From Planctomyces sp. (GTDB lineage Bacteria; Planctomycetota; Planctomycetia; Planctomycetales; Planctomycetaceae): DNA of 64,000 nt. Position numbers and translations under genes: made by a program. The notes beneath the pieces were generated by a model, which made no database searches, had not been told where the DNA came from, and saw nothing but the letters and a program-made list of their open reading frames with translations. The DNA is taken from assembly GCA_016795105.1 (NCBI GenBank), contig JAEUIH010000010.1, positions 1 to 64,000 on the forward strand. Reading direction: 5' to 3'. This document shows positions 17,606 through 27,347 of this stretch, in pieces (positions within the stretch are counted from its first letter, which is position 1; each line of letters opens with the position of its first letter).

Positions 17606-18163
17606 GTGACTACAACAGAGAGAACCGAATTTTTGACGGTTTTTCAGAAGTGTGTTGAGCGATTAACACAGGACACTGAGCTTGCGCTCGGAGAACTGTT
17701 TGATTTGACTGCTCAAAGACTGGTACGGCTGGCAATGACAATTACAGGAAGTCAATCCGATGCTGAAGACGCACTACAAGGTGCGTTTTCCCGCATTGCC
17801 GGAAAGCCGGGACTTCTGGTGAAAGCCGATGCACCCTGGCCATATCTGATCCGAACGGTGCGTAATGAATCTCTGAGGATTATGCAGAAGCGACGGCACT
17901 TTCAGATGGAGACACTGGAAGCGTCATCAACTGCTCGACCTGTAGAGAGCATGCTGGATCAGGAAGAGACATCTGAACGAGTACGTCGGATACTGGAGTC
18001 TCTTCCAAAGAATCAGTACGAGGTCGTGATTCTCAAACATTGGGAAGACCTCACGTTCGCAGAAATCGCGGAGGCCCTTGAGTTGTCTCAGAATACAGTT
18101 GCCAGTCGCTATCGTTATGCAATGGAAAAGCTGCAGCGAAGTTTGGAGCCTCTTGTTCGTTAA
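17606..18163 (+). CDS. ECF-type RNA polymerase sigma factor
   Basis: A 185-residue sigma-70 family protein. Region 2 (about 27-95) contains GSQSDAEDALQGAF and WPYLIRTVRNESLR. Region 4 (about 125-180) has LPKNQYEVVILKHWEDLTFAEIAE followed by a helix-turn-helix. It starts at a GTG with no strong ribosome binding site. It is the first gene of a long plus-strand series leading into the pseudopilus genes; its immediate neighbour is a single-TM protein that could be its anti-sigma factor. A role in switching on the downstream secretion genes is inferred from position only. Confidence 0.88.
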   Translation: MTTTERTEFLTVFQKCVERLTQDTELALGELFDLTAQRLVRLAMTITGSQSDAEDALQGAFSRIAGKPGLLVKADAPWPYLIRTVRNESLRIMQKRRHFQMETLEASSTARPVESMLDQEETSERVRRILESLPKNQYEVVILKHWEDLTFAEIAEALELSQNTVASRYRYAMEKLQRSLEPLVR

Positions 18164-18345: not shown

Positions 18346-18867
18346 ATGAACGATCCCACCCATTACCGGCCCGACCCAATTATGCCGGAACATCAGCTGA
18401 TCCGAGAAGCGGCCTTTGTCCCATCGCTTTCAAAGGACCTGCGTTCGCGTGTGATGGTTCAGTGCCAGTCGCAGATCCGCGTGTCGCGCTGGAAGCAGAG
18501 GCTGACGCGTGGTGGCGCCGTGATGGTTGCAGCCGGTGTGCTTTTCTTCCTGTTCTTTCGTCCTGAGCCCGGTGTATCGCCTCCGGTCGTCAATGGGAGT
18601 CCTCAACAGAATCTCACGCCGCCAACGCCGAATTCAGGCTATGTTTCGCCAGGGCAGCTTGTCACTCCGGGTCCGTCCGGGGATCTCGGTGTTCCGAAAC
18701 CGGATCGAGGTCCGGAGAATCTCGTCGAGGGAGTTGAAATTCCCATGCCGACACCGGACGAGCGCAGAGCTCCTCAGATTGAGCCAAAAGGTTCAGATGA
18801 GATTAACCTGATCATTGATGAACTTGTCCGCCGCAATCGCCGACTGTGTGGAATGCTTCTGTGGTAA
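18346..18867 (+). CDS. Single-pass membrane protein, possible anti-sigma factor
   Basis: A 173-residue protein. An N-terminal cytoplasmic part of about 55 residues contains basic helices (REAAFVPSLSKDLRSRV). One TM segment at 57-71 is followed by a Pro/Gly-rich outer region of about 100 residues. No family is recognised. The layout (short cytosolic domain, one TM, low-complexity exterior) and the place directly after an ECF sigma gene suggest an anti-sigma factor. It might instead be a structural partner of the pilus-like machine. Its stop overlaps the ATG of gspE (TAATG), so it is coupled to that gene. Confidence 0.55.
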   Translation: MNDPTHYRPDPIMPEHQLIREAAFVPSLSKDLRSRVMVQCQSQIRVSRWKQRLTRGGAVMVAAGVLFFLFFRPEPGVSPPVVNGSPQQNLTPPTPNSGYVSPGQLVTPGPSGDLGVPKPDRGPENLVEGVEIPMPTPDERRAPQIEPKGSDEINLIIDELVRRNRRLCGMLLW

Positions 18868-20033
18868 TGCGTTCGTTCGCTGCGGTGGTTCAAAAGATTG
18901 CTCCAGGGCAGGACATGTATGTCCCAATGATAGTGGATGCGATCCTTTCAGAATCACGCCGACACCACGCCAGCGACGTTCATCTGGTTCCTGGGGAAGA
19001 CGGCCTGAGAATGCAGTGGCGCATTGACGGGGTGCTGACCACTGTGGCAATCTTTGATTCGGAGATTTCCGCTCAGGTGATCGCGAGGCTGAAAGTCCTT
19101 GCCGGTTTGCTGACCTATCGTACGGACGTCCCCCAGGAAGGCAGAATTGCTCGGGAGAAAGTCACTGGCGAAGTGCGGGTTGCCACATTTCCGACGTTAT
19201 ATGGTGAAAAGGCAGCAATTCGCTTATTCGCGGATTCTCAGCAGCTTCAGCGCCTTCAGGAGCTTGGGTTTTCTCCGCAAGTGCTCGCCCCCCTGATTGA
19301 ACATCTGTCAGAAACAGCCGGAGTGATCCTGTTGACGGGGCCATCCGGAAGTGGAAAAACGACCACAGCATATGCCTGTCTGCGAGAAATTGTCTCAGAA
19401 CACGGTGACTCTCGGTGTGTGGTGACTCTTGAAGACCCGATTGAAGTGGCGATCCCTGGGGTTTCTCAATCACAGATACGACCTGCTGCGGGGTTTGATC
19501 TGGCAACCGGGCTGAAGTCCCTGATGCGGCAGGATCCCGACGTGATTTTTGTAGGCGAGATTCGCGATCCGAAAACTGCGGAGACTGTATTTCAGGCAGC
19601 GTTGACGGGTCATCTTGTGATCACAACATTTCACGCAGGCAGTGCGATCGAAGCAGTGACTCGATTGCTGGATATGGGCATTGAACCGTATCTGCTGCGA
19701 AGCACACTGCGGCTTGTCGCTTGCCAAAGACTTCTGCGAAAACTTGCCATAGAGGGACAACTTTCTTCCGAGATTCAGAAACCGCAGACTTCCTCAGACA
19801 AATCGAGTCTGGATTCTGTTTCATACAGCGGCCGTTTTCCACTGATGGAGATCTTTGATCCTGCACCTGCGGAGACTGGTCGAGCAATTCTGGATCGCGC
19901 GGATGCTCGAAGGCTGGCCATAGTAGCGAAAGAGGTCGGGATGACTACACTTCACGATCATGCTCATGAAGCCGTACTTCGTATGCAAACGACCGAATCA
20001 GAAGTCTTTCGAGTCCTGGGGCGTCGATCCTGA
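18867..20033 (+). CDS. GspE/PilB-like secretion ATPase, short form
   Basis: A 388-residue ATPase starting at the ATG at 18867, coupled to the previous stop. It has an N2-like domain (ASDVHLVPGEDGLRMQWRIDG), Walker A GPSGSGKTT (158-166), the Asp box LEDPIE, Walker B VIFVGEIRD (226-234) and a His box TTFHAG. It lacks the N1 domain of GspE/PilB, and the C-terminal cysteine quartet that binds zinc is absent; only one Cys remains in LVACQRLLRKL. It powers extension of pseudopilin or pilin fibres at the inner membrane together with GspF. Size is between PilT and GspE, but the linkage to pseudopilins favours assembly. Confidence 0.88.
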   Translation: MRSFAAVVQKIAPGQDMYVPMIVDAILSESRRHHASDVHLVPGEDGLRMQWRIDGVLTTVAIFDSEISAQVIARLKVLAGLLTYRTDVPQEGRIAREKVTGEVRVATFPTLYGEKAAIRLFADSQQLQRLQELGFSPQVLAPLIEHLSETAGVILLTGPSGSGKTTTAYACLREIVSEHGDSRCVVTLEDPIEVAIPGVSQSQIRPAAGFDLATGLKSLMRQDPDVIFVGEIRDPKTAETVFQAALTGHLVITTFHAGSAIEAVTRLLDMGIEPYLLRSTLRLVACQRLLRKLAIEGQLSSEIQKPQTSSDKSSLDSVSYSGRFPLMEIFDPAPAETGRAILDRADARRLAIVAKEVGMTTLHDHAHEAVLRMQTTESEVFRVLGRRS

Positions 20034-20098: not shown

Positions 20099-21175
20099 AT
20101 GACAGCAACAGTTTCGCTAACGCTCGAGGACATTCAGCATCTCAGCGAAGAAGTGCATGCGCTGGTCAAGGCTGGACTTCCGCTGGAACGTCATCTGGCC
20201 GCTGCGGGCAGTGGTCGAAGTCAGCGGCTCAAGGTGATGACGGAGAGCATTGCGTCAGAACTGCAGACCGGAAAGCCTCTCCAGCAGGTCGTCGCCGCAC
20301 ATGGAGATGGAGGAAGTCGGATGCTGGCGGCGGCCGTCGCAGCCGGTATCAAGTCCGGAAATCTGGCAACGACAATTGAGACGATGGGAGACTTCGCACG
20401 AGACCTTGTCGACCTTCGACGTCGAATCCTGTCAGCGCTCTCATACCCTGCGCTTGTTGTCGCAGTTGCATGGGTTATGGTTGCTCTCTTTCTGCAGACC
20501 ACACTTGATCGTATTTACATAACTGGCCTGCAGATGGAAATCCCATTCCATCCAATACTCGGAACTGTCCTCCGATGGAACTCGGAGATGCCATGGCTGC
20601 ATTATCTGCTGCCCGCGGTATGTGCCATTCTGTTCCTGTTCTGGGTTGGATCCGGACGTGCTTCAGCCATGGTGTTTCGAGGTCCGGAACTGCTGATCCT
20701 GCTGCTTCCTGGCATTCGTCCGGTGATCCGGGATTTGAGGTTCTATACCATGTCCCGAATCCTGTCAGTGTTGGTGGAAAAAGAGATTCCCCTGCCGGAT
20801 GCGCTGCGTCTGGCTGGTGCCGTTTCCGGAAACCGAGGACTTGACGTGGCAGGAAATTCGGTTGCCGACGCCATGGAAAATGGCGCGACGACAGGTCTTC
20901 CGAGAGGTGGACGCTGGAGGACCGGTCAACTACCACCGATGTTATTTGCCTGCCTGCAGAATGCGGGAGACAGTGAACAGCGGTTTCTGATGCGACTTCG
21001 AGCCGCTTCGGATTTGTACCGATCACGCGTTGAAGTTGGACTGCTGTGGGTCAGATCTGTTTTGCCGGTGTCGATCTTCCTGATTGTTGGCGGTGGCACA
21101 ATGACCATGTATGCAGCATCCGTCTTCTGGCCGGTTCTTGAGATCTACAGAAATCTGGGACAGCCGACAATATGA
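20099..21175 (+). CDS. GspF/PilC-like membrane protein, first of three
   Basis: A 358-residue T2SSF-family protein with two cytoplasmic helical domains (about 12-115 and 215-320) and three TM segments (about 118-138, 166-186 and 325-350). The first domain carries LSEEVHALVKAGLPLERHL and AGIKSGNLATTIETM. It is the inner-membrane partner of the GspE ATPase in pilin and pseudopilin assembly. It lies 65 bp after gspE and overlaps the second GspF gene by 4 nt. Of the three F proteins here it looks the most canonical in having both domains complete. Confidence 0.85.
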   Translation: MTATVSLTLEDIQHLSEEVHALVKAGLPLERHLAAAGSGRSQRLKVMTESIASELQTGKPLQQVVAAHGDGGSRMLAAAVAAGIKSGNLATTIETMGDFARDLVDLRRRILSALSYPALVVAVAWVMVALFLQTTLDRIYITGLQMEIPFHPILGTVLRWNSEMPWLHYLLPAVCAILFLFWVGSGRASAMVFRGPELLILLLPGIRPVIRDLRFYTMSRILSVLVEKEIPLPDALRLAGAVSGNRGLDVAGNSVADAMENGATTGLPRGGRWRTGQLPPMLFACLQNAGDSEQRFLMRLRAASDLYRSRVEVGLLWVRSVLPVSIFLIVGGGTMTMYAASVFWPVLEIYRNLGQPTI

Positions 21176-22554
21176 CACATTACCGTTACCACGCTGAAAC
21201 GACTTTTGGGGTTCCAATCTATGGAACTCAGAACGCCGCGTCCGAGCCGGAACTCCGATCCATTCTGGCGTCCCGAAACCTCAGGCTGGTTCAATGCGGA
21301 GAGCTTGCTGTCGATTCGGCGCTGGCAGATAAGTCTGCCACGATCCCGCGGGCCATACAACTCCGCTTTGGAGAACGTCTGCGCGAAGCGCTGATCACCG
21401 GGATACCGGCACATGAAGCCGTGAGAGCCCTCGCGTCGGAGCCTATCGAGCATCCTGTTGTTTCCATCATGCCGTGGGTGTTTTTGACTTCACTGTTTCT
21501 GTGTGCGACATCACTGGTCTGGGTACTGGTCTACCCACCGGCGCTTGCTGTATATGGAATCGCAGTGGTTGGAGTCCTGATGGTTCTACCGATGAGCTGG
21601 GGACTCGCACAGTACTTCTTTATCGAGCGCCCCCGACGTCTTCTGCATCGGATTGCCGATGATCTCGAACGCGGAAACACAGAATTGCTGCAGGGCGGAA
21701 TTGGGTTTCAGGCAGAGGTCAACGCTGTTCTTCGGTCGGAGATCAGTAGCCAAAAGAAAGCAATGGCTGTTGCAGATTTGATCCCGGCGCTGAACTCAGG
21801 TCGGTTCTTTCAGCATCAGACGCTGCTTGGAGTTGGAGGGCTCTATCTGATCACGTCATTTTTTGCGTTATGCGGATACTGGATCATGGCCTACATGATT
21901 CCACAATATCGCAAGATTTACGAAGACTTCGACACGTCTCTTCCGGTACTAACGGCTGGTCTCGTGAAGATTTCCAGTTGGTTTGAGTTCCTTGGCTTAC
22001 CGGGCCTGATGGTTGTGCTCACGCTGCTGGGGCTTGGGCTGTTCGCGATTGTCGTTATGGCGTCAACGCCTCGACTGAGTGACTTCCTTGCTCAGGTACC
22101 GGTGATTGGACAGAACGCTCAATGGCTCATGCAGGCTCGTGTTGCACGAGTGATTGCATCGTTAGTCCGACAGAATTGTGATCGAGCTGTCATTATTCGA
22201 ACCGCGACTTCAGGAAGCTTCTCGAGGACTCTGCGAGTCGAGGGGGAGTACGTTGCGTCAAATATTGAACGAGGGGGAATCGCTTCCGGAGGAACGACGA
22301 TGCTGTCCAGTCTCCCACTGTCGCTGCTGCTCAGCAAAACGACGGAAGGGCATGAGGGAGAAACTGCATCCTCGCGAATCGCTCAGAGTTTCACCGCACT
22401 TGCATCAATGCTCGAAAGAGCTTGTCAGGGACGGACCGCTTTTCTGATCATGGTGTTTCAGATCGGTCTGACCGTCGTGATGTCCTTCTTTGTAGGCATG
22501 ACTGTGATTGCACTTTTCCTTCCCCTGATGAGACTGCTGAATGATCTCGCCTGA
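21172..22554 (+). CDS. GspF-like membrane protein, second of three
   Basis: A 460-residue, longer variant. Residues 1-60 resemble the small N-terminal domain often found before T2SSF (YRYHAETTFG...GTQNAASEPELRSILASRNLRLVQ). An abbreviated first F domain follows, then extra TM segments (about 100-150), and the family motif PQYRKIYEDFDTSLPVLT (243-260). The second half ends in the typical VGMTVIALFLPLMRLLNDLA. At least five hydrophobic segments are visible, more than the usual three. It overlaps the first GspF gene (ATGA). It is probably a diverged inner-membrane platform protein. Confidence 0.75.
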   Translation: MTHYRYHAETTFGVPIYGTQNAASEPELRSILASRNLRLVQCGELAVDSALADKSATIPRAIQLRFGERLREALITGIPAHEAVRALASEPIEHPVVSIMPWVFLTSLFLCATSLVWVLVYPPALAVYGIAVVGVLMVLPMSWGLAQYFFIERPRRLLHRIADDLERGNTELLQGGIGFQAEVNAVLRSEISSQKKAMAVADLIPALNSGRFFQHQTLLGVGGLYLITSFFALCGYWIMAYMIPQYRKIYEDFDTSLPVLTAGLVKISSWFEFLGLPGLMVVLTLLGLGLFAIVVMASTPRLSDFLAQVPVIGQNAQWLMQARVARVIASLVRQNCDRAVIIRTATSGSFSRTLRVEGEYVASNIERGGIASGGTTMLSSLPLSLLLSKTTEGHEGETASSRIAQSFTALASMLERACQGRTAFLIMVFQIGLTVVMSFFVGMTVIALFLPLMRLLNDLA

Positions 22555-22594: not shown

Positions 22595-23689
22595 ATGTCC
22601 GGAAGCTACCTTCAAAATCTCCTGTTCTTTTGGAATCGCCCCGAACCGATTCGCCAAACTTCATTGCTGATGATTCTGGCGGCTGGTGTTGGGAACGAGC
22701 ACGCACTGATTGACTCACTTGCGGCACACGCAATGGAATCCGGATCGCCGTGGGGTGATCGCGTCCAGTCATTGCGGCTGCTCATCGAACAGGGAATGCC
22801 TCTGTCGACCGCTCTCGCAAATAATCATGGCCTGCTTCCGGAATCGACTGTGGCAGCGATCCGCGTGGCAGAACAAACCGGTGTCCTGAGAGAAGTTTTG
22901 GCGGACGAGGCGATACGACTTGCAGGTCGAGATCAGTACCAGGGCTCACCTGTCGGTGCCAGCCTGGTGAATTCTCTGATCTGGATGTTCAGCGTCGGTG
23001 TAGCAGCTTCTCTGCTCGTCGGGTTCATCATGGTCTGGATCATCCCAAAGGAAAAGAGAATCTTTGAAGACTTCAATCAACAACTTCCTTCCTTGACCAT
23101 TCTTCTGATTGACTTCTCGGACTGGTTCATGAACTATTGGTATCTGGTGCTTTTCTTTGGCATGACCGTCGTTGGAATCGGCAGTCTCATACTGTTTTAC
23201 GGTCAGTTTCAGTACGTATCTCGAGGCCGACTACTCTTTTCAGAGCAGTTTCCAAGGTACTGGCTGCCGCTCCTGCTTCGAATGTTCAGTGCAGCAACAA
23301 TCGGAAACCGTGATCTCAACGCCACCGTGCATGCACTTCAGAGTGAACTTCGGCCGGGCAGAGCATCGAGAGCGTTCAGCAATCTGCGAGCACAGCTGAG
23401 TGTAGGTGTCTCACTGATCGACGGTCTGATTTCAAGCAGACTCATCAATGTCCGCGAGGCCAATTTTCTCAGGGCAGCAGAGACAAGCTCACACCTCGAC
23501 TGGGGACTCCTGCATCTGAGCCATTCACTTGAACAAAGACGCCTGCGATTTCACTACTGGTTTAGCCAGCTGTTTCACGTCGCGACAACTCTGACAATGG
23601 GGTTTCTGGTGATGTTTGTTGTTGTTGCCCTCTTCCTGCCACTGATCAAGCTGATCAGCGACCTCACCGAGCAGGGAGGTTCAGTATGA
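22595..23689 (+). CDS. GspF-like membrane protein, third of three
   Basis: A 364-residue T2SSF-family protein. The first domain (about 20-115) has LRLLIEQGMPLSTALANNHG and AAIRVAEQTGVLREVLADE. A TM near 130-150 is followed by PKEKRIFEDFNQQLPSLT (151-168). A TM near 180-205 and a last TM with VVALFLPLIKLISDL complete it. It shares the IFEDFxxxLPxLT motif with the second F protein, indicating these two are the closer relatives. It is separated by 40 bp from gene two and overlaps the next pseudopilin-like gene by 4 nt. Confidence 0.8.
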   Translation: MSGSYLQNLLFFWNRPEPIRQTSLLMILAAGVGNEHALIDSLAAHAMESGSPWGDRVQSLRLLIEQGMPLSTALANNHGLLPESTVAAIRVAEQTGVLREVLADEAIRLAGRDQYQGSPVGASLVNSLIWMFSVGVAASLLVGFIMVWIIPKEKRIFEDFNQQLPSLTILLIDFSDWFMNYWYLVLFFGMTVVGIGSLILFYGQFQYVSRGRLLFSEQFPRYWLPLLLRMFSAATIGNRDLNATVHALQSELRPGRASRAFSNLRAQLSVGVSLIDGLISSRLINVREANFLRAAETSSHLDWGLLHLSHSLEQRRLRFHYWFSQLFHVATTLTMGFLVMFVVVALFLPLIKLISDLTEQGGSV

Positions 23690-24168
23690 ACTCATCTCAG
23701 TGTACTGAATGGCGGCTCGCCCGGAAGACCGATGGAGGTCTTGGTATTCGGCCAATTCGGAAGGGATCCCTTCTGACAGAAATGGTCGTGTGTACGGTGC
23801 TGTTGTCTGCCGTGACGGCGGTTCTGGTTCCCACGATTGCCAAAATGATCGAACAACGCAAACTGATTCGGTTTGATGCGATATGTCTGGTGGAGCTCGA
23901 TAACGTCGCCATCGAACTTCAACAGCGAGCTGCCGCGTCCGAGGGCCTGACAGGAATCAAACTCAGTGAGTCTTTTTTGAAACGCTATCCGAACGCCACT
24001 CTGGCGCTTGAAGAAATGCCAGGCACGGAGAAATCCCCTCTGAAATCCGTAAAGATCACGATCCAGAAACCATGGCGGATTCAGGCACCGGATATCCGGC
24101 ATTCTCTGACGATCTGGTTGCCGACCGGAGTTCAGGCACAGAATTCTGAGGAGTCGCCCACCCCATGA
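23686..24168 (+). CDS. Minor pseudopilin-like protein
   Basis: A 160-residue protein with a type IV prepilin-like N-terminus. About 26 leader residues end in RKG, followed by SLLTEMVVCTVLLSAVTAVLVPTIAKM with Glu at position 5 of the mature protein, the classical requirement. The rest is a short globular domain. Length and position suggest a GspH/GspI-type tip pseudopilin. Overlaps (ATGA) with both neighbours indicate a single translation unit. A prepilin peptidase would be needed in trans. Confidence 0.7.
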   Translation: MNSSQCTEWRLARKTDGGLGIRPIRKGSLLTEMVVCTVLLSAVTAVLVPTIAKMIEQRKLIRFDAICLVELDNVAIELQQRAAASEGLTGIKLSESFLKRYPNATLALEEMPGTEKSPLKSVKITIQKPWRIQAPDIRHSLTIWLPTGVQAQNSEESPTP

Positions 24169-24749
24169 GGAGTTTCAAGCGTACCAGACAACCTGTTCAT
24201 CCGCGGTCGGGCGGCATCTTTCAGTACTATTTTGCATACTTACTGATGACAAGCGTAATTCTGTCCAGCGCTGGATTCTGCATTCATCTGACAGTGAAGG
24301 CGTTTGACGATCAGTATGCCGCCACTGTCGCAACTCGCACGACGCTGGCGGTCCGAAAACAGTTTCGACTCGATGAACTTGAAGCAACAACTCTGAATGT
24401 TGTTGACGGTCGGCTGAAGTTTGAATTTGCCGGTGACGGGCAAAGCTCAGCCGATGTATTGGCAGCAGAATGGCGATCCGATCGAAACGTTCTGATTCGT
24501 TCCGTTGTCCGTTCAGGCGGAACCACTGAAAACCGATTCGTCTTTCCGCTGGGATCCAAAATCTCTTTAAAAGAGCTGGATGAACATCGCGCCATTGTGC
24601 GAGTTCAGGATCCATCTCCGCTGCAAGTGCTCGAACGAGAATCGCTACCAGAGAGTAATGGCCAGACAGATGTCGCCACGAAACCGCCAGATATCGAGGG
24701 GTTAGCTGAGGTGGGCTCGTTGGAATTCATCATCAGAGGGGGACATTAA
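24165..24749 (+). CDS. Membrane-anchored minor pseudopilin-like protein (GspJ-type position)
   Basis: A 194-residue protein with one N-terminal hydrophobic helix (about 18-46, FQYYFAYLLMTSVILSSAGF) after a short basic leader with RSGG. The canonical Glu5 is not seen, so processing as a prepilin is uncertain. The rest is a beta-rich globular domain without cysteines. Gene order after the GspI/H-like gene matches GspJ in type II secretion operons. It overlaps its upstream neighbour by 4 nt and its stop shares a base with the next ATG (TAATG). Confidence 0.6.
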   Translation: MRSFKRTRQPVHPRSGGIFQYYFAYLLMTSVILSSAGFCIHLTVKAFDDQYAATVATRTTLAVRKQFRLDELEATTLNVVDGRLKFEFAGDGQSSADVLAAEWRSDRNVLIRSVVRSGGTTENRFVFPLGSKISLKELDEHRAIVRVQDPSPLQVLERESLPESNGQTDVATKPPDIEGLAEVGSLEFIIRGGH

Positions 24750-25195
24750 TGAGACATACTGCCTCTCGTGCTGATCTGAGCAAACCCGCGATTACTCTTC
24801 CGGGCACATCTGCCTTTTCAAATCGATTTAACGGGACAAACCGGGTTGGTGCTGTCTCGGCAATGGTGATTGTCGTTCTGCTTGTCCTTGCAGGCATGAT
24901 TGCAGCTCAGGTCAGAGTGACCATTATGGAGCGTCGCCAGATGCGGCATGAGTTTGAGTATCAGCAGGTGGAGCGTCTGGCTGAGGCCGGCGTTCTTCTG
25001 GTGAATTCGAAGGCATCAGAACCCGAATGGTCGGGAACCACGTGGGAAATACCGTCCGGACAGATTCACCAGACAAATTCGGGAACTGTCCAGATCAGCA
25101 TAAAGCCGGATCGAACCTGGACTGTCACAGCTCGATATCCAGCAAACACCGAACACCCATTTCAGGTTACAAGAACAGGGAAACTTAAGCCATGA
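24749..25195 (+). CDS. PilX/GspK-like small pseudopilin-type protein
   Basis: A 148-residue protein with a hydrophobic helix at about 35-53 (VGAVSAMVIVVLLVLAGMIA), followed by an amphipathic helix MERRQMRHEFEYQQVERLAEAGV. That pattern is usual in PilX/GspK proteins, in which the helix ends in an (Q/E)A-x-x-LAEAG motif. Glu5 is missing, as in GspK. It is shorter than a typical GspK (about 300), lacking the large insert domain. It overlaps the first DUF1559 gene by 4 nt. Confidence 0.6.
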   Translation: MRHTASRADLSKPAITLPGTSAFSNRFNGTNRVGAVSAMVIVVLLVLAGMIAAQVRVTIMERRQMRHEFEYQQVERLAEAGVLLVNSKASEPEWSGTTWEIPSGQIHQTNSGTVQISIKPDRTWTVTARYPANTEHPFQVTRTGKLKP

Positions 25196-26130
25196 TCACT
25201 TTGCTACCTTTCCAGCAGCAAACACGCCGACTCAACCGCGGCTTTACTTTGATTGAGTTGCTCGTTGTGATCGCGATCATTGCAATTTTGATCGCTCTCC
25301 TGCTTCCAGCCGTCCAACAGGCCCGGGAAGCTGCTCGTCGGACCCAGTGCAAGAACAATCTGATGCAGCTCGGTCTGGCACTGCATAATTACGACATGGC
25401 ATTTGAAGCACTTCCACCAGGTTCTGTGAACCCCACTGGTCCGATCTTGTTTGAGCCCGTTGGTTACCACATGAGCTGGATTACTCAGCTACTGCCAATG
25501 ATGGAGCAGAGCAGCCTGTTCAGAGCTGTCAACTTTGATGTCGGCGTCTATGACGCAGCAAACGGCGGTGTGCGATCAACAACAATCGGAGTATTCCGCT
25601 GCCCAAGCGATATTCCTACGTCAGCCGCCATGGCCGGTGGAGGTCCCGGGGTTTCAAACTATGCAGGCTGCACTGGTGGTGATGATGTTCCGATCGATAC
25701 AACCAACAACGGACTCCTGTATTTGAACAGCAGCATCGCGTTCCAGCAGATCTATGATGGTGCATCCAACACTGTGCTTGTGGCTGAACGCGTCCTTGAC
25801 CCCACGCAGGTGGATCACGGTTGGATGTCCGGCACAAATGCGACTCTCAGGAACATGGGAACAGGACTGAACTCCGCGAAGATTCCGGGACTCACAGGTT
25901 TTCGTCCGTCCGGCCAGATGCAGGACCCATTGAATCCGGAAGTTCCTGCGACACAGGTGACCGACCCGAGCGTAGCTGTATCCCCTGGAGGGTTCTCCAG
26001 CCGTCACACTGGCGGAGTTCAGACGTTGCTTGCAGATGGTTCCGTGAGGTTTATCAGTGAGAACGTTGACGTAAGGCTGCGAAAGAACCTTGGAAATCGT
26101 GAAGACATGGAATTGATCGGCGAATTCTGA
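25192..26130 (+). CDS. DUF1559 pseudopilin-like protein, first copy
   Basis: A 312-residue protein with an excellent prepilin N-terminus: short leader ending RG, then FTLIELLVVIAIIAILIALLLPAVQQAREAARR with Glu5. The DUF1559 domain follows, typified by CKNNLMQLGLALHNYD and a C-terminal HTGGVQTLLADGSVRFI. The family is hugely expanded in planctomycetes; its members are thought to be major pseudopilins or cell-surface components but are largely uncharacterised. Being encoded inside the GspE/F cluster marks this copy as a likely dedicated substrate of that machine. Confidence 0.9.
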   Translation: MITLLPFQQQTRRLNRGFTLIELLVVIAIIAILIALLLPAVQQAREAARRTQCKNNLMQLGLALHNYDMAFEALPPGSVNPTGPILFEPVGYHMSWITQLLPMMEQSSLFRAVNFDVGVYDAANGGVRSTTIGVFRCPSDIPTSAAMAGGGPGVSNYAGCTGGDDVPIDTTNNGLLYLNSSIAFQQIYDGASNTVLVAERVLDPTQVDHGWMSGTNATLRNMGTGLNSAKIPGLTGFRPSGQMQDPLNPEVPATQVTDPSVAVSPGGFSSRHTGGVQTLLADGSVRFISENVDVRLRKNLGNREDMELIGEF

Positions 26131-26228: not shown

Positions 26229-27347
26229 ATGCTTTCTGCAATTCTTCAGCCGCCTCAGATGCCGCGATGGAAACGTCGCGCACGAGGCTTCACACTGCTC
26301 GAACTGATTGTAGTCATCGGAACGATTGCCATCCTGATTTCATTGCTCCTCCCATCAATTCAGCAGTCTCGAGAAGCCGCGCGGAGGACTCAGTGCAAGA
26401 ACAATCTCTTGCAGATTGGACTGGCGTTGAGGAACTACGATTCGCTCCACGAGGTACTTCCTCCGGGCTGTGTCAGTCCCTCAGGTCCGGTGAAAGTCAG
26501 ACAGTCCACCACGTATCGAATTGGCTGGATCGTTCAGATCCTCCCGTTTCTCGACAAAATGCCAATCTATCGCCAGGTGGATTTCGTTCGTCCGCAACTT
26601 TCGATGTTGACGGAAGAGGAAAAACTGCAGCTTCTTCAGCTCGAAGCCGCGATACCAGCAGCCACTCAAGATAGTCAGCCCGTTTACGACGGATCGAATG
26701 GCGGTTTCCCTGGAGAATTCATGGAGTATCAGTATTCGAGCCCCGTATCACTCACGCTTTTAACAGAGCCATCAAGCGGCCCGGGTATTGTGTTTCCGAT
26801 CCTGCATTGTCCTTCCGTCCCGTCGAGTCGAGGGCAGGGACGGTTTGACGATATGGTAGAGTATGCTGCAAATCAGGGGAGCGTCGAAACACCCATTGAT
26901 GCTGGCAATAACGGCCTCTTCTACCTCAACAGTTCACATTCACTTCGATCTGTACCAGATGGGGCATCCAGCACAATCGCAGTTGGAGAACATCTGAATT
27001 CTCCGTCGGGCGATGGTTGGTTTTACGGTGATCGTGCAACAATCCGGAACACAGATCACCCATTGTCAAAATCCTGGAACTCGCCATTGGCCCCCGGTAA
27101 CACACCACCGCCTGAACTGCCGGCTGGCACAAACATCGATGAACTCGATCCGTTAATTGCTGAACAGATCCGAAAAGCCGACGATGAATCAAAGTTTGTT
27201 GGGGGATTCGGAAGCCTGCACGTGAGTACTCACTTTCTGATGGCCGATGGCAGCGTTCGCGGAATCAACGACTTTGTTGCGCCCGAAGTTCTCAGGCGGC
27301 TGGCCAATCGAAACGATGGTGAAGTCATTTCTGACGGCAGCTTCTAG
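26229..27347 (+). CDS. DUF1559 pseudopilin-like protein, second copy
   Basis: A 372-residue protein with prepilin N-terminus [36 protein letters not shown] (Glu5 present). The DUF1559 core is [16 protein letters not shown] and the C-terminal motif is [16 protein letters not shown]. It is 60 residues longer than its neighbour, with inserts around 118-150 and 290-320. A ribosome site AAGGGA lies 7 nt before the ATG. It follows the first copy after 98 bp and closes the cluster. The two diverge enough to have different roles, for example shaft and tip. Confidence 0.9.

Follow-up and report, generated by a model that had tools for sequence, protein, structure and literature searches.

An N1-less GspE/PilB-type ATPase and three ancient GspF paralogs in a conserved planctomycete cassette

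The window—the whole 64,000-nucleotide stretch of Planctomyces sp. contig JAEUIH010000010.1 analysed here—contains, on its plus strand, an open reading frame (ORF) of 388 amino acid residues at 18867..20033, with the ATG at 18867 and the stop codon at 20031–20033. The ATG overlaps the stop codon of the ORF before it (TAATG), and from stop to stop the reading frame spans only 403 amino acids. In a profile search, PF00437 matches positions 8–370 of the product (E=1.7e-84), and all of the ATPase motifs are present: the Walker A motif GPSGSGKT, TLEDPIE, RQDPDVIFVGEIR, and the His box TFHAG. With its Walker A, Asp box, Walker B, and His box on an N2D and CTD core, the protein has the make-up of a GspE/PilB extension ATPase, and the ORF is an intact gene of this type. 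The original prediction of a 388-residue ORF with all of the ATPase motifs was confirmed in coordinates, length, and motifs by the ORF check and the alignment.

Two plus-strand genes precede the ATPase. The first, at 17606..18163, encodes an ECF-type sigma factor; it adjoins the ATPase in five relatives (L123, L125, L133, L145, and L157), and its product may be a regulator. The second, at 18346..18867 and directly upstream of the ATPase, encodes a protein with one transmembrane segment and a Pro-rich outer part, possibly an anti-sigma factor. Profile searches with this protein gave no family match and no N1 or GspL/PilM match. Elsewhere, the ORF lies beside the ATPase only in L123 and L157, and we rejected it as a general adaptor for the ATPase because only these two other genomes have it.

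The ATPase gene is followed on the same strand by three genes of the GspF type. F1 (20099..21175, 358 amino acids; PF00482, E=3.8e-25) is a full-length GspF/PilC-type platform protein, with two helical-bundle domains in the single-chain AF2 model (pLDDT 83.4). F2 (21172..22554, 460 amino acids) overlaps F1 by 4 nt and is a divergent paralog without a Pfam match, assigned to GspF by its NCBIfam profile (TIGR02120, E=8.7e-16) and its position. F3 (22595..23689, 364 amino acids; PF00482, E=1.6e-20) is the third paralog.

Next in order are the putative filament subunits, all on the plus strand. The first, p1 (23686..24168), overlaps F3 by 4 nt and is a GspI/ComGE-like minor pseudopilin (KG|SLLTE...); its NCBIfam ComGE match (E=2.8e-5) is under the cut-off, and its orthologs carry RRGFTLIE-type signals at a conserved position. 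The GspJ-like minor pseudopilin p2 (24165..24749) overlaps p1 by 4 nt and has no Pfam match; its signal is degenerate in the window's genus, while its orthologs, again at a conserved position, have RRGFTLMEV-type signals. A GspK/PilX-like minor pseudopilin without Glu5, p3 (24749..25195), has orthologs in the same place in most cassettes, and its class is read from the N-terminus, with no family match. Judged by N-termini and position only, p2 and p3 are thus pseudopilin-like. Finally, D1 (25192..26130), which overlaps p3 by 4 nt, is a DUF1559 pilin-like protein with an H-X9-DG C-terminus (PF07596, E=3.7e-56; N_methyl, E=5.2e-9; TIGR04294 match) and the candidate major pseudopilin, and D2 (26229..27347; PF07596, E=3.9e-41) is a second DUF1559 protein, also found in close relatives. 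Both DUF1559 pilins carry type III signals.

The order ATPase-F1-F2-F3-p1-p2-p3-D1 recurs across genera, and the four-base overlaps at F1/F2, F3/p1, p1/p2, and p3/D1 suggest coupled translation. A scan for promoters and terminators returned fewer sites than in shuffles. The cassette supplies the pilins, the platform, and the ATPase of a minimal type IV filament system, and an A24 prepilin peptidase, encoded elsewhere in the genome and unlinked, completes this core. Profile searches of the cassette genes recognised no GspC/L/M, no PilM/N/O/P, and no secretin, and no secretin was found on the window's contig (C11). The claim that GspL/PilM partner genes are absent stands for the cassette, where none of GspL, GspM, PilM, or PilN was recognised; outside the cassette, the genome encodes a PilM (C33) and four MshEN-bearing ATPases.

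The GspE profile aligns to the ATPase from profile position 109 to its end, and the PilB profile from position 177, indicating that the protein consists of the N2D and the CTD, and has no N1. Consistently, the single-chain AF2 model (pLDDT 87.9) shows the N2 and CTD domains behind an N-terminal lead of 18 residues. An overlooked N1 domain was sought and not found: the 403-residue frame holds no N1/MshEN/GspE_N domain upstream of the ATPase, as the profiles align from N2 only, and the long upstream frames of the few orthologs tested are devoid of MshEN, which does appear in the N1-bearing control L118. A missed upstream N1 is thereby ruled out, and the predicted absence of N1 holds. Moreover, it extends beyond the window. 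Among 294 genomes sampled across the phylum, 49 have an ATPase match at E<=1e-128, with open frames of 381–579 amino acids in 48 of the 49 listed, and within the window's class about 40 of the 52 sampled genomes possess an ortholog. In a tree of 92 rows, thirty orthologs from planctomycetes group together in a single clade (SH-aLRT 99), and the sister of this clade is a Hydrogenedentota protein (SH-aLRT 98) in which likewise no N1 was seen. Judged from these sequences, the absence of N1 is a trait of the whole ortholog clade. In one ortholog (L036/L145, G023:C271), the ATPase is broken by a single in-frame TAA in an otherwise complete cassette, reflecting either a pseudogene or an assembly error.

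To which branch of the secretion ATPases does this protein belong? In the profile comparison with PilB, PilT, GspE, TadA, and FlaI called for by the original prediction, GspE (TIGR02533) scored best, with 316.7 bits against a cut-off of 630.25, followed by PilB (TIGR02538; 285.4 bits, cut-off 675.65). ComGA (NF041000) reached 214.4 bits, also below its cut-off of 300, and TadA, archaeal FlaI, and VirB11 gave 39.8, 57.0, and 46.9 bits, none of them the best. A retraction motor or another PilT/PilU-like ATPase that merely resembles GspE would share the two-domain, N1-less size, and the AU test on a 52-row tree permits the clade to branch next to the PilT root (p=0.523). The PilT profile (TIGR01420), however, yields only 133.8 bits against a cut-off of 319.1, whereas the two PilT proteins of the same genome pass with 444.7 and 381.2 bits. 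In addition, the PilT-type rows form their own clade outside the ATPase orthologs in the 92-row tree, the top Foldseek matches of the model are PilB, PilF, and GspE, with PilT more than ten orders of magnitude behind, and the cassette contains no second ATPase. The placement within PilT that was looked for as a refutation was thus not found; profile and fold exclude a PilT identity, while the AU test leaves the branching near the PilT root unfixed, and we regard a PilT/PilU-like motor as highly improbable. The 92-row tree had also hinted that the N1-less state arose independently from that of ComGA. We withdrew this proposal because the AU test lends it no support: shared ancestry with ComGA is compatible with the data (p=0.495), so that a common origin is neither shown nor excluded. 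A very divergent second GspE/PilB-like ATPase (L011; G000:C244:29362-30513, minus strand; at most 484 amino acids) has about 70 residues before N2, apparently again no N1, and an extremely long branch.

In the GspF tree, F1, F2, and F3 form three clades (SH-aLRT 99, 95, and 99, respectively), and 41 other sampled GspF proteins constitute a single clade (SH-aLRT 97) separate from all three. In the PulF trimer, the proposed channel is lined by the Tyr-Pro and Glu-Pro residues, whose conservation among GspF/PilC homologs has been described (PMC10790770). Tyr-Pro in TMS1 is present in 40 of the 41 other GspF proteins, as compared to 32/32 for F1, 17/25 for F2, and 0/24 for F3, and Glu- or Gln-Pro in TMS3 in 37 of the 41, as compared to 1/32, 10/25, and 8/24. 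F1 of the window keeps the TMS1 Tyr-Pro and is without the TMS3 Glu, F3 has lost the TMS1 Tyr-Pro while keeping an IFEDF..LP loop motif, and neither F2 nor F3 of the window has the channel motif. The full motif is reliably kept in none of the three. On this comparison, the three paralogs represent distinct, ancient clades that have lost different parts of the Tyr-Pro/Glu-Pro motif. In the window's subgroup, F2 no longer has either channel motif and carries an extra hydrophobic hairpin following its first cytoplasmic part. One contig without a T2SSE ATPase match carries a lone GspF-type protein (L213; G000:C222:29888-30847, minus strand; 362 amino acids).

As predicted, the four-cysteine metal site of the C-terminal domain is absent from the window ATPase: the corresponding segment (QRLLRKLAIEGQLSSEIQKPQTSSDKSSLDSVSYSGRF) contains zero cysteines, and the AF2 model has a low-confidence loop, residues 297–316, at the expected place of the zinc knuckle. 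Treating the lost cysteines and the absent N1 as parts of a single design was wrong. At least one CxxC pair, often in the arrangement LCxC...GCxxC, is kept in 45 of the 49 aligned orthologs, that of G050 among them, and the proteins without one are that of the window, those of its congeners G001 and G003, and that of G036. By this alignment, the cysteine loss is lineage-specific, having occurred in the window's genus and in a second lineage, in comparison with the clade-wide absence of N1, and it therefore gives no information on membrane coupling in the family. Two losses that seemed one event in a single sequence can now be told apart, and three non-equivalent GspF paralogs are more striking than the missing cysteines. 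We propose that the zinc knuckle is dispensable in the window's genus and was lost recently.

Zinc coordination is reported to be essential in EpsE/PilB (PMC11656802), and its loss here, along with that of the channel motif from F2 and F3 of the window, could mean that the cassette is the remnant of a T2SS or type IV pilus system decaying as it loses function. Against this explanation, which we consider very doubtful, the catalytic motifs of the ATPase are invariant even across distant orthologs, and many genera preserve both the order of the genes and their open frames. Moreover, the probable counterpart of the cassette in Planctopirus limnophila (see below) is among the notable loci in the main text of an essential-gene screen (PMC10632474).

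How regularly do three GspF genes accompany the ATPase? In almost every comparable machine, the platform is encoded by a single gene. Here, a block with exactly three was observed in 34 distinct genomes—28 distinct loci (30 listed, two of them duplicates) plus six genomes with the ATPase elsewhere—and more than three were never seen. In some genomes the ATPase gene is divergent or at another place, and the six ATPase-elsewhere genomes that were followed all have a complete F1-F2-F3-p1-p2-p3-D1 block at the other site. The F1 tandem was found in all eight tested genomes with the ATPase, and the 12 class members lacking the ATPase all lacked the tandem as well. Three is not absolute, since two GspF genes occur in a Gemmataceae cassette (L055) and G004 (L139) shows two beside the ATPase.

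How is an ATPase without N1 coupled to the membrane? Gene content strongly suggests that coupling occurs via the N2D to GspF-type proteins only, and the presence of three GspF genes per ATPase, together with their co-occurrence, strengthens this case. We consider it fairly probable that the cassette is a minimal, planctomycete-specific, Com-pilus-like pseudopilus assembler with its motor coupled in this way, probably to a heteromeric platform. The ATPase would form the usual hexamer and use its N2D to grip the platform's cytoplasmic domains, in line with the models for PulE:PulF and Tad; with N1 and a GspL/PilM-type partner both absent, this contact would be the only physical coupling of the motor to the membrane. 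F1, F2, and F3 would together make up a single heteromeric platform, in the simplest case a 1:1:1 heterotrimer, with their six different cytoplasmic domains facing the six ATPase subunits. PulF is supported as a trimer, and was modelled 3:6 on the PulE hexamer through the N2D (PMC10790770). ATP turnover would then lift the DUF1559 and p1–p3 subunits into a filament staying in or crossing the periplasm, giving a pseudopilus of D1 with p1–p3 as minor subunits. That the three ancient, non-equivalent GspF paralogs form an obligate heterotrimer, driven by the N1-less ATPase without a GspL/PilM stator, we regard as about as likely as not on the present sequence comparisons.

The paralogs might instead build three separate homomeric platforms that share one ATPase and differ in their pilin-like substrates, or in whether they act in assembly or in disassembly. 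Multiple platform/ATPase sets per genome are known, as with the Haloferax PilB-PilC paralogs, and the 55 DUF1559 matches in the window genome offer many possible substrates. This arrangement appears unlikely: F1, F2, and F3 are adjacent, with their order fixed in 34 genomes, and are accompanied by one ATPase and one p1–p3 set, and complementary subunits fit the incomplete channel motifs better than self-sufficient ones. The prediction had named GspF-type proteins as the membrane partner, which remains the best choice; the generic partner it implied gives way to three that are nearly always present together, non-equivalent, and ancient.

Its further claim, that coupling runs only through these proteins, is likewise the best reading of the cassette, tempered by PilM and the four MshEN-bearing ATPases encoded elsewhere; such PilM and MshEN proteins could act in trans. 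An N1 function might be supplied by a stand-alone MshEN domain in a 358-residue membrane protein on C88, by PilM on C33, or by the one-TM protein at 18346, with its ORF overlapping the ATPase start. No such gene travels with the cassette: the 18346 ORF accompanies the ATPase in just two other genomes and lacks a family match, and the C88 protein is unlinked and resembles a J-domain/MshEN regulator. Supply in trans is accordingly a rather remote prospect, and coupling by GspF-type proteins is the reading we retain. The C88 protein (L196; G000:C88:95697-95957, minus strand) seems to have a J-domain-like N-terminus, with hydrophobic segments at its C-terminus, and is encoded outside any pilus operon seen.

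One of the closest known systems is the Com pilus of monoderms (ComGA/ComGB), which likewise combines an N1-less extension ATPase with the absence of PilMNOP, GspL/M, and a secretin, and which runs on ATPase and platform alone (PMC10191384); the ComGA rows L175 and L176 are likewise short. The cassette differs in its three GspF proteins as compared to one ComGB, its diderm host, its DUF1559 pilins, and its sub-threshold ComGA score. It shares with the T2SS the best-scoring profiles, GspE for the ATPase and GspF for F1–F3, as well as the GspI/J/K-like small proteins, with all T2SS-type scores under the NCBI equivalog cut-offs; unlike the T2SS, it has no N1, three GspF proteins, and no recognised GspC, GspL, GspM, or secretin. 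A platform from more than one gene, as proposed here, has a precedent in the heteromeric platform of Tad/T4c pili (PMC12019362, PMC10191384). TadB and TadC, in contrast, are half-size, single-domain proteins, whereas F1 is full length with two bundles in its AF2 model, and the cassette ATPase is not TadA-like.

A 2023 Tn-seq paper on Planctopirus limnophila (PMC10632474) noted in its main text an operon of unknown function, Plim_0410–Plim_0401, in which six planctomycete-restricted genes follow four T2S-annotated ones; that main text contains no domain, platform, or motif analysis of it. The layout is that of the window cassette, and on this likeness, which rests on gene order, the operon is probably its counterpart. 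No earlier description of the N1-less motor or of the three-paralog platform was found in the literature searched, outside which most subscription papers lie. As far as was found, the cassette is a real, conserved, and apparently uncharacterised variant of a known machine type, and our proposal offers a specific idea of what this widely conserved planctomycete operon may do.

The cassette bears on two questions about type IV filament motors: the number of platform subunits per motor, and the need for N1/GspL-type anchoring. For the platform, a dimer, a trimer, and a tetramer have each been put forward (PMC10790770, PMC6711533), and homo-oligomeric platforms are hard to test genetically. With a platform naturally split into three distinguishable subunits and a motor without an adaptor, stoichiometry becomes testable by co-purification and deletion, and tools for genetic work in this phylum are reported (PMC11958385). 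If the heterotrimer is true, gene content alone would fix the three-per-hexamer stoichiometry argued over for GspF/PilC.

DUF1559 proteins occur, apparently in numbers, in class members without the ATPase system (eight candidates scored per genome). A strict dependence of this family on the cassette machine is thereby rejected, and many DUF1559 proteins must therefore be served otherwise or never assembled. For the same reason, D1 is a candidate, not an established, dedicated cargo. The ATPase and a cassette of the window's Planctomycetaceae subgroup also appear in a metagenome-assembled genome labelled Candidatus Kuenenia stuttgartiensis (L045; CAMAVB010000079.1), a label that, to judge from these genes, is probably wrong.
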